This document shows positions 1-24,172 of a stretch of DNA of 41,511 nt, piece after piece; position 1 is the first letter of the stretch, and the number at the start of each line of letters is the position of its first letter. The notes below the pieces were generated by a model. It worked only from the letters and a program-made list of their open reading frames with translations, was not told the DNA's origin and did not search any database. The stretch spans positions 1 through 41,511 of the forward strand of contig CAJQRN010000022.1 of the NCBI GenBank assembly GCA_905612295.1, read 5' to 3'. The DNA comes from an uncultured Candidatus Nitrosopumilus sp. (GTDB lineage Archaea > Thermoproteota > Nitrososphaeria > Nitrososphaerales > Nitrosopumilaceae). The position numbers were made by a program, and so were the translations under genes.

Positions 1-136
1 GTTTTTCTTTTCTTTTATTTTCTAAAAACATATTTCTAATTCTTGAAAATTTTAGATATGATTCTAATTCATTATTTGAAATACTGCATGTGGAATAAAA
101 TGACTCTCCAACTATGAATTCTGAAAATTTCTTCAA
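1..136 (-). CDS. MaoC-like (hot-dog) dehydratase, N-terminal fragment cut by the window edge
   Basis: An open minus-strand frame starts two bases after the stop of the upstream SDR gene, at a TTG, and runs off the left edge, so only about 45 residues are visible. They begin MKKFSEFIVGESFYSTCSIS and continue into a segment ending NMFLENKRKEK. The pattern of an aromatic residue, then F-x-VGE-x-F, then an S/T-I-S-x-x-E-L-x-x-Y helix resembles the start of MaoC-type enoyl-CoA hydratases. The catalytic Asp/His lie outside the window, so activity cannot be judged. The tight spacing suggests one transcript with the malonyl-CoA-reductase-like SDR gene. Family assignment is from memory of the pattern and is tentative; the TTG start follows from spacing and frame. 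Confidence 0.5.
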   Translation of the reverse strand, partial: MKKFSEFIVGESFYSTCSISNNELESYLKFSRIRNMFLENKRKEK

Positions 137-138
137 TC

Positions 139-1911
139 TTATCTTGTTTCGTCAACACAGAATGTTACTTCTGCAGACGAAAGTGCATGTTCTGTAACTA
201 GAAAATTAAATGCATCTGCTATTCTTTGATTGTTTGGTTCTGAACCTGTGACTGAACCTGGGAAAATTGTAAACATTCTGATTTTTGATTTTAGCACATC
301 ACTTAGTTCTTGATTAACTGTGGTAGTGAATGGTCTTAATGCTCCTCTGAAAACTTCCACTTGGGCTCTTTGTGTTCCTGTAACTTTTCTTCCTATTGGT
401 AAATCTGGACCGATAATCATGATTGCTCCTTTTGCATCTTTATACAAACGTGGATCTTCTTTACCGCCTGGTACAAATTGTTCAAGTGCTCTTTGTGCAA
501 CTGTTGCAGGTGTTGAAATAAATTTCTCAACTAATTCTTCCCATACTGGTCTAGTTACTTCAGTTAATTTTTCAATTTCTGGTAATTTTCCTGTTATGTG
601 TATGACTCCTAAAATTTCTCCGATGTTTGTTCGTGCTGTGTTTAACCATCTTTGAACTTCTTCAGGATTTTTAATATCTACTATATGTGAATGGAATTTA
701 CTACTGATATATTCTTGAAGATCAGTTGGTGTTGTTTGTGATATGAAACATGCAACTTTTCCCCCATTCTTTTCAACATGTTGTGCTAAAAATTCTACAC
801 GTTCTGCATCTGTTTTGTCTGTTGCATCAATTGTAAACACAACAGCTTTTCCCGTAAAATTTGGTTGATGAACTCCTGGTGCGGTAGTTCCAATATGTGG
901 TTTAACTGGATAAAATACTCTATCTCCTGGAATTACTTTTCCATTAACAATTTTTGCAATTTCATCATCACACAAATTTAGAACTGTTTCTGCAACTTGT
1001 CCTTGAGTTAAGAATTCTTTATTTGCAATCATATGTGATGTATTATTTTGAACTTTTTCTGCAATTGTTTGTATTTTATTTAATAAGTTAGTTAATGTCT
1101 CAGTTAATTTCACAATATCTTTACCATTTGCTAATTTTGTTGCTGCATTTGCAATTCCTTCTTTGATAACTGAATCATCTTCTCCCAACAGTGAAAGTAA
1201 TTCTTTGTTTGCTGCATCCACTTCTGTTGGATTAAGATCTTCAAATCCTCCAACTCTCATAAATTCTGCTGCTGCTTTTGGATATACTGTTTTGTAAATT
1301 CTATCTGAGTGAACTGGACCTGGATTTGTTGCAATTGAAATAATTCCTTTATCTGTTAATTCCCATGACATTAATTCTGCTAATCTATTCTTTGCACCTT
1401 GTGCTGCAGTATATGGACTTCTAAATCTATATGGTCTTTGTTCTAGTGGCTTTTCTTCTGTGAAAAATGTTGAAATTGTAATAATTTTCCCTCCTTCTTT
1501 CATAACTTTGAGTGCTTGAACTGAACCCCAGAATGTACCTGTAAGGTGAATTCCAATTGTACTTTTGAATTCATCTAATGATGCATTAGGAAAACATGTG
1601 ACTGGACCTGAGACACCTGCATTATTGACAATATTATCTACTGTTACGTTATCATTTTTTAAATCCTCAAACATCTTATTCATTGCATTTTCATCACTCA
1701 CATCTACCCCTGAAAAAATTCTAACACTTGCACCGCTCTGTTTTTCTGCAATAATTGATTCTAACATTTTAGATGTTTCATCTAATGGCTCTCTTCGTCT
1801 CCCTAGTATGATGACACTTGCACCATTTTCAACAAATTTTTTGGCAATGGCTTGGCCTATTCCTGTTCCACTCCCTGTGATTAAAGATGTTTTATTTTGA
1901 AATTTTAACAT
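139..1911 (-). CDS. Double SDR-domain oxidoreductase resembling the N-terminal half of malonyl-CoA reductase
   Basis: A 590-residue protein with two short-chain dehydrogenase-like halves. Half 1 (about 1-250) has the NAD(P) glycine motif TGSGTGIG at 12-19, NNAG at 96-99, Ser147, Tyr167 and a PG motif NPGPVHSDRI at 196-205. Half 2 (about 345-590) is a degenerate Rossmann half with FPGSVTGSEP near its end. The length, the two-SDR layout and local similarity (NPGPVHSDRI, and a C-terminus ending S-A-E-V-T-F) match the part of Chloroflexus malonyl-CoA reductase that reduces malonic semialdehyde to 3-hydroxypropionate. The residue four after Tyr167, normally the catalytic Lys, is Gln171, so activity is not assured. 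It precedes a MaoC-like gene by two bases, suggesting 3-hydroxyacyl chemistry. SDR family membership is secure; the substrate is inference. Confidence 0.8.
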   Translation of the reverse strand: MLKFQNKTSLITGSGTGIGQAIAKKFVENGASVIILGRRREPLDETSKMLESIIAEKQSGASVRIFSGVDVSDENAMNKMFEDLKNDNVTVDNIVNNAGVSGPVTCFPNASLDEFKSTIGIHLTGTFWGSVQALKVMKEGGKIITISTFFTEEKPLEQRPYRFRSPYTAAQGAKNRLAELMSWELTDKGIISIATNPGPVHSDRIYKTVYPKAAAEFMRVGGFEDLNPTEVDAANKELLSLLGEDDSVIKEGIANAATKLANGKDIVKLTETLTNLLNKIQTIAEKVQNNTSHMIANKEFLTQGQVAETVLNLCDDEIAKIVNGKVIPGDRVFYPVKPHIGTTAPGVHQPNFTGKAVVFTIDATDKTDAERVEFLAQHVEKNGGKVACFISQTTPTDLQEYISSKFHSHIVDIKNPEEVQRWLNTARTNIGEILGVIHITGKLPEIEKLTEVTRPVWEELVEKFISTPATVAQRALEQFVPGGKEDPRLYKDAKGAIMIIGPDLPIGRKVTGTQRAQVEVFRGALRPFTTTVNQELSDVLKSKIRMFTIFPGSVTGSEPNNQRIADAFNFLVTEHALSSAEVTFCVDETR

Positions 1912-19550: not shown

Positions 19551-21021
<1,471 letters not shown>

Positions 21022-21163
21022 TAGACATGGAAAGTGTACGGGTGTACATAATGTTCACATTGAAATCATCGATGCAATGCATCACGAAAGTGATGTATGA
21101 AGGATGTAGTGGGTCGCTTACCGGCGACTTGCAATGATCGTCGTGCATAGTCGTGTAATATGT
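21022..21163 (+). other. 16S-23S internal transcribed spacer without tRNA
   Basis: About 140 bases. Euryarchaea usually carry tRNA-Ala here; no cloverleaf or CCA-proximal pattern is present. The spacer consists of the 16S stem strand, a GAAA-capped hairpin and the start of the 23S stem strand. Confidence 0.8.
21038..21061 (+). other. 3' strand of pre-16S processing stem
   Basis: Complement of 19464-19487, giving a 24-bp helix that loops out the whole 16S. Just downstream, 21078-21097 forms an 8-bp hairpin closed by a GAAA tetraloop. Confidence 0.7.

Positions 21164-21165
<2 letters not shown>
21136..21165 (+). other. 5' strand of pre-23S processing stem
   Basis: Pairs with 24221-24248 over 28 base pairs, four of them G-U, with single unpaired bases at 21148 and 21157. 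The core is GTCGTGT-A-ATATGTGG against CCACATAT-ACACGAC. Confidence 0.7.

Positions 21166-24172
<3,007 letters not shown>

Follow-up and report, generated by a model that had tools for sequence, protein, structure and literature searches.

Bifunctional malonyl-CoA reductases (MCRs) of Chloroflexus aurantiacus and Roseiflexus castenholzii consist of two fused halves, each a double short-chain dehydrogenase/reductase (SDR) unit, in about 1,220 residues. In Roseiflexus MCR, Tyr743, Arg746, and Tyr749 keep the malonyl end in place, the CoA thiolate is proposed to receive its proton from the Tyr743-Arg746 pair, CoA binding involves Arg785, and the exchange Lys753Ala in the C-terminal half (C-half) abolishes activity (PMC10470521). 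Semialdehyde reduction is served by Tyr172, Arg175, Tyr178, and Lys182 of the N-terminal half (N-half); Lys182 is assigned to proton relay when the aldehyde is reduced, and cleavage of the thioester is ascribed to the Tyr-Arg pair (PMC10470521).

Ammonia-oxidizing archaea (AOA) rank with the most abundant autotrophs of sea and soil. Reductase steps of their CO2-fixation cycle, the 3-hydroxypropionate/4-hydroxybutyrate (3HP/4HB) cycle, stand without genes in the portions available of three studies, which state that MCR activity was measured in extracts of N. maritimus and that the gene was not identified (PMC4510362; PMC6038301; PMC6964070). The cycle is likewise described, in the accessible text of one of them, as having no settled succinyl-CoA reductase (PMC6038301), and another, in its available part, assigns malonic semialdehyde reductase to Nmar_1110 (PMC4510362). 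Searches of the open-licence PMC literature turned up no paper that assigns the protein described below or names a gene for malonyl-CoA reductase in AOA. This double-SDR protein is deeply conserved, AOA-specific, and of MCR type, with an invariant Tyr...Gln active site, and a role as malonyl-CoA reductase is the best-supported explanation for it, as an unproven candidate.

Gene and Domain Architecture

The window analyzed in this study is a stretch of 41,511 nucleotides from a Nitrosopumilus-like draft genome (G000) of 72.6% completeness, which also contains complete 16S and 23S rRNA genes at 19551–24168 on the forward strand. The double-SDR gene occupies positions 139–1911 on the reverse strand and runs uninterrupted from an ATG start to a TAA stop over 590 codons; the double-SDR layout that the initial annotation had proposed from this frame is borne out by Pfam for the first half and by AlphaFold models for the second.

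The first SDR domain (residues 1–202; positions 1306–1911, reverse strand) matches Pfam adh_short over residues 7–203 (E 1.2e-35) and contains the cofactor motif TGxxxGIG (here TGSGTGIG), Arg38-Arg39, Asp70, NNAG, Thr148, and the active-site helix. Its signature, Y161-x-x-R164-x-x-Y167-x-x-x-Q171-x-x-K174, lies at 1390–1431 (reverse strand), with TAT as the codon of Tyr167 and CAA (1399–1401, reverse strand) as the codon of Gln171, where SDRs have Lys. A helical insertion (residues 203–322; positions 946–1305, reverse strand) separates the PGP motif from the last strand of domain 1 and is intermediate in length between the corresponding region of the MCR N-half and the "extra domain" region of the C-half. 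The second SDR-fold domain (residues 345–590; positions 142–879, reverse strand) shows no GxxxGxG and carries Arg515, Arg522, and Arg526, which, like Arg219, are invariant in orthologues.

The Pfam search of the window protein left this second half without a match and returned no semialdehyde-dehydrogenase family for the protein. The second half of orthologues from family f3 matches adh_short at E about 1e-4, and the AlphaFold model of the second half is an SDR domain (pLDDT 92, pTM 0.90). The model of the whole protein reached a pLDDT of 81 and a pTM of 0.83, with low-confidence stretches at residues 100–105, 150–166, 330–344, and 580–590; the active-site loop at 150–166 is modeled with pLDDT under 50.

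Conservation of Glutamine 171

The Tyr-x-x-x-Lys pair of classical SDRs is only half present, with Tyr167 in place and Gln171 in the position of Lys, just as first annotated. Gln171 is invariant in all 125 full-length orthologues aligned, which comprise 110 distinct sequences and reach as low as about 44% identity, and a Lys at this position, the sign by which a sequencing error was to be recognized, occurs in none of the 125. These rows leave out five of 129 loci, the ORFs of which have 560 aa or less. Gln was also found in all 81 loci of the first set, a count that takes in the window and omits three unrelated SDR loci. Since every orthologue carries Gln, a sequencing error or a lone mutation is ruled out.

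The rest of the signature is equally constant: it is invariant in 125/125 rows, Lys174 included. The cofactor residues, Thr148, Tyr161, Arg164, Tyr167, and Arg204 are invariant or nearly so across orthologues, with Arg38 present in 110/110 distinct sequences and Asp70 in 125/125 rows.

Distribution Among Archaea

A contig scan, which reaches close relatives only, kept 80 of 127 relative-encoding loci, all 80 titled thaumarchaeal or "archaeon". Among 398 genomes of the phylum, 78 match at E 1e-15, five of them through single-SDR matches, and the long double-SDR gene is present in 73, all belonging to three families (f1, f2, and f3) of one order that are probably Nitrosopumilaceae, Nitrosocaldaceae, and Nitrososphaeraceae, respectively. 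A profile search of the class recovered the gene in 145 of 200 genomes, namely 113/116 of f1, 6/6 of f2, 25/25 of f3, and the single genome of f67, part of these matches being partial genes at contig ends; none of 15 genomes from other families of the same order had a profile match. At G291:C6:27978-29752, a frameshift or an assembly error splits the gene into overlapping frames of 545 and 87 aa. Although 78 plasmid records matched, none covers 80% of the query, and the 15 matches listed involve the first domain only.

In 40 chosen genomes, archaeal amoA was identified in 19/19 carriers and was absent from 20 of the 21 non-carriers, the lone exception being an 89%-complete draft (G510) with amoA present. 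On this co-occurrence the gene marks ammonia oxidizers, being present in AOA and absent from non-AOA relatives with that one exception, which by itself is weak evidence of function because many genes are AOA-specific. The 4-hydroxybutyryl-CoA-dehydratase-type domain PF11794 is found in 161/200 genomes of the class, including genomes of family f4 that have neither the double-SDR gene nor amoA. Six f4 genomes (G338, G470, G487, G493, G499, and G523) have a strong HpaB_N gene of this dehydratase type and neither amoA nor the double-SDR gene; G338 and G493 have four aldehyde dehydrogenase matches each.

Relationship to Bacterial Malonyl-CoA Reductase

A free-standing relative of bacterial MCR had been proposed initially, subject to significant similarity being found, and full-length bifunctional MCR indeed ranks first by whole-sequence E-value in PDB searches, both with the single protein (4.1e-31) and with profiles (2.7e-38 and 2.2e-45). 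For the first domain taken separately, the A2 profile scores 2et6 (91.4 bits) and 4iuy (88.9 bits) above an MCR half (84.2 bits); classical SDRs thus score similarly per domain, and sequence ranking alone would not decide kinship with MCR. The link therefore rests on the two-domain arrangement together with the Tyr/Arg residues.

Regarding the arrangement, a Foldseek search with the predicted model returned MCR entries in the top 24 rows (TMq 0.64–0.72), followed by peroxisomal multifunctional enzyme type 2 (MFE-2; 2et6, TMq 0.55), the one further double SDR among the leading matches, and the model matches MCR over residues 1–586. VIA-align gave Z 28.9 over 513 residues for the C-half (best match 6k8u) and Z 28.6 over 482 residues for the N-half (8hi6, 8aew, and 6k8v). 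The second domain alone carries no MCR-specific signal and ties with SDRs in general (hhalign E 0.0017 against the C-half, 0.18 and 0.012 against the N-half).

Regarding the residues, Tyr, Arg, Tyr, and Arg occupy positions 161, 164, 167, and 204 in all 18 rows of a joint alignment (five MCR and 13 AOA sequences). None of 34 control SDRs (29 of 30 fetched, one being dropped for a weak score, plus five others) has Arg at 164, Arg at 204, or Gln at 171. Arg38 and Asp70 align with the NADPH contacts Arg616 and Asp651 of the Roseiflexus C-half, and are not MCR-specific because both are also common in the control SDRs. Equivalents of Arg799 (extra domain) and Arg1164 (SDR4), which bind malonyl-CoA in the MCR C-half, were not located, the alignment beyond the PGP motif being unreliable; by eye, Arg1164 falls on Asp538, and the invariant Arg219, Arg515, Arg522, and Arg526 are candidates for this function. 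The AOA protein thus shares with an MCR-type unit the predicted packing of a second SDR domain and the Tyr/Arg/Arg set and lacks its catalytic Lys, and with 590 aa it forms one unit instead of the two fused double-SDR halves of the bacterial bifunctional enzyme.

The initial annotation had likened the protein to the malonic-semialdehyde-reducing N-half, a label that we do not retain. HMMER profile scores for the first domain favor the C-half (73.9 and 66.5 bits vs. 58.5 and 55.1 for the N-half; with the A2 profile, 84.2 and 82.9 vs. 71.1 and 69.0), and hhalign gave 159 for the C. aurantiacus C-half, 143 for its N-half, and 178 for a three-sequence, three-species N-half profile, values obtained at unequal profile depth. 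In a 23-row tree, all MCR-type rows group together (89/69) and the AOA protein joins the N-half at 81/74, a weakly supported position with long-branch warnings. HMMER, hhalign, fold, and tree therefore tie or disagree on an N-half assignment, and the malonic semialdehyde step has already been assigned to Nmar_1110. A C-half assignment, which has the per-domain HMMER scores and the longer loop in its favor but not the tree, is not claimed either. By profile, fold, and tree the protein is about equally far from both halves, and we take it to form a third lineage of MCR-type double-SDR enzymes, built as a single unit, alongside the two bacterial halves.

Candidate Role in the 3HP/4HB Cycle

Two other protein families were surveyed for the malonyl-CoA step, aldehyde dehydrogenases (PF00171) and the semialdehyde-dehydrogenase family (PF01118), in 17 carrier genomes, comprising 16 near-complete ones (97% or more) and the draft of the window. 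PF00171 proteins are absent from three near-complete, single-contig AOA genomes (G108, G311, and G366) and from the window draft; with 3/16 near-complete carriers lacking it, this family cannot account for the step in every carrier. Each of the 16 near-complete carriers has exactly two PF01118 proteins above the cut-off, and these we infer to be the biosynthetic ArgC/LysY-type and aspartate-semialdehyde enzymes. Given the PF00171 gaps and the biosynthetic reading of both PF01118 proteins, the double-SDR protein with its malonate-type residues is the best remaining candidate, although a promiscuous aspartate-semialdehyde dehydrogenase could perform the malonyl-CoA step instead.

The best explanation, and one for which we consider the chances evenly balanced, is that the double-SDR protein acts as malonyl-CoA reductase, and perhaps also as succinyl-CoA reductase, of the AOA 3HP/4HB cycle, a place in the cycle that the initial annotation had found attractive and that we likewise judge plausible. 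The fuller proposal is held more tentatively, at somewhat short of an even chance: the protein would be the malonyl-CoA (possibly succinyl-CoA) reductase of all AOA, an unfused MCR-type lineage in which the Lys-to-Gln exchange became permanent and which would reduce the thioester without over-reducing the aldehyde.

By analogy with the bacterial enzyme, the first domain would bind NADPH through Arg38 and Asp70, while Tyr161, Arg164, and Tyr167 might grip the substrate at its malonyl end and donate a proton to the departing CoA thiolate, an action proposed for Tyr743-Arg746 in the Roseiflexus C-half; Arg204 would correspond to the CoA-binding Arg785. Hydride transfer would then yield malonic semialdehyde, which would be released. 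Lys753Ala abolishes activity of the Roseiflexus C-half, so an enzyme with Gln at this place would have to work by a different mechanism. Gln171 could orient the nicotinamide ribose via hydrogen bonds, and the enzyme, having no proton-relay Lys, may be biased to stop at the aldehyde; Lys174, one turn further along, could take over part of the role of the missing Lys. A comparable Tyr-x6-Lys spacing is known from FabI. The released malonic semialdehyde would be reduced by Nmar_1110, presumably a member of the iron-containing alcohol dehydrogenase (Fe-ADH) family, and one double-SDR enzyme may reduce both malonyl-CoA and succinyl-CoA. The data establish the family, the conservation of its residues, and its distribution; substrate and mechanism are proposals.

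Several observations count against this role. Thr148 is N-half-like, and by sequence the protein stands about as far from the N-half, which reduces the aldehyde, as from the C-half, which reduces the thioester. The inactivity of Lys753Ala, the missing counterparts of Arg799 and Arg1164, and the low pLDDT of the loop at 150–166 weigh on the same side. 4-Hydroxybutyryl-CoA-dehydratase-like genes occur in relatives without the double-SDR gene. No other cycle gene was recognized by eye beside the double-SDR gene in the loci read, so gene clustering lends the role no support.

Gene Neighborhood and Alternative Functions

Downstream of the double-SDR gene, the window contains the start of a weakly MaoC-like (hot-dog) gene (2–136, reverse strand), truncated at the end of the window. 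A TTG at 136, two bases past the double-SDR stop codon, opens its frame, of which 45 codons fall within the window; the complete neighbor at orthologous loci measures about 150 aa and in most cases begins some two bases downstream of the stop. While the initially noted spacing thus stands, the MaoC-like label is weakly supported: the best Pfam MaoC match, in one of three neighbors, has an E-value of 0.14 and does not reach the cut-off, and the match of an eight-neighbor profile to the MaoC-type protein 1q6w (E 4.6e-5) spans no more than 51 residues. The gene follows the double-SDR gene in 96/129 loci, which are partly redundant. Of 123 testable loci, 27 lack it despite having more than 500 nt of room; these include every examined locus of f2 and f3 as well as 14 from nearer f1 relatives. 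The pairing is therefore dispensable and forms no part of our core claim, and an operon logic that requires the MaoC-like gene is ruled out. At five loci without the hot-dog neighbor (L006, L009, L035, L114, and L119), a convergent putative membrane transporter, TauE/SafE-like by eye, lies near the double-SDR gene, also in distant families.

The frequent adjacency would fit an NADPH-dependent enzyme that serves some other pathway specific to AOA (for lipids, a cofactor, or a 3-oxoacyl-CoA step) and is partnered by the hot-dog protein in some lineages; the general SDR likeness of domain 2 and the fact that AOA share many signature genes would fit as well. We consider this unlikely, if still deserving of attention, in view of the loci that have room for the neighbor and lack it, among them every f2 and f3 locus examined, and of the Tyr-Arg-Arg set, common to MCR and absent from the control SDRs.

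Equally deserving of mention, and doubtful to a slightly greater degree, is a reading as a reductase of malonic or succinic semialdehyde that works like the MCR N-half. Thr148 corresponds to Thr165 of the N-half, the PGPxxSDRI motif is close to that half, the tree joins the two weakly, and succinic semialdehyde reductase, too, has no settled gene in AOA. Yet the Lys that the available part of the MCR study assigns to the aldehyde proton relay is Gln in all orthologues (PMC10470521). A strong Fe-ADH match is also present in 16/17 carrier genomes examined, so the malonic semialdehyde step looks covered in those genomes. Such a match, which we take to represent the Nmar_1110 type, is absent from 6/6 f2 genomes and the one f67 genome, all carriers, which speaks for a semialdehyde reductase.

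The seven genomes without it are G197, G257, G273, G350, G488, and G461 (f2) and G436 (f67). In these, a malonic semialdehyde reductase of the Nmar_1110 type may be absent or have a substitute; a strong match (E about 1e-24 or better) is present in the remaining 16 AOA genomes examined.

A catalytically dead, regulatory or scaffolding SDR, the non-catalytic role that the loss of the SDR lysine had initially suggested, is very improbable, since residues 145–220 are the most conserved part of the protein (mean identity 95% vs. 78–81% elsewhere in 110 distinct sequences) and the cofactor and active-site residues are retained, which indicates an active site under strong selection rather than in decay.

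Comparison With Known Systems

If the protein is a malonyl-CoA reductase, bacteria and archaea would have drawn on one unusual double-SDR fold to handle malonyl-CoA in cycles that are unrelated, and an SDR may work without the textbook lysine. A named candidate in all AOA families surveyed makes the gap in the cycle directly testable and offers a marker gene for the pathway.

The C-half of C. aurantiacus and R. castenholzii MCR (SDR3-ED-SDR4; 8hjw and 8hi4) resembles the AOA protein in its order of SDR, helical insertion, and second SDR, and its Tyr743, Arg746, Tyr749, and Arg785 correspond to Tyr161, Arg164, Tyr167, and Arg204. At about 20% identity, the AOA protein differs from it in having Gln for Lys753, Thr for Ser731, and a shorter insertion. 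The N-half (SDR1-SDR2) shares Thr165 (Thr148 in AOA) and Tyr172, Arg175, and Tyr178 (Tyr161, Arg164, and Tyr167), whereas the AOA protein has Gln for Lys182, a longer loop before the Tyr, and a longer helical insertion. MFE-2 (2et6) likewise has two SDR domains per chain, but its overall arrangement differs (TMq 0.55, rmsd 19).

In Crenarchaeota, a single enzyme of the aspartate-semialdehyde-dehydrogenase type is said to reduce both malonyl-CoA and succinyl-CoA; if the proposed AOA role is true, the double-SDR protein would catalyze the same step of the same cycle with a different fold. Nmar_1110 belongs to the same cycle and lineage as the AOA double-SDR protein, but it comes from an unrelated family and acts at the next step.
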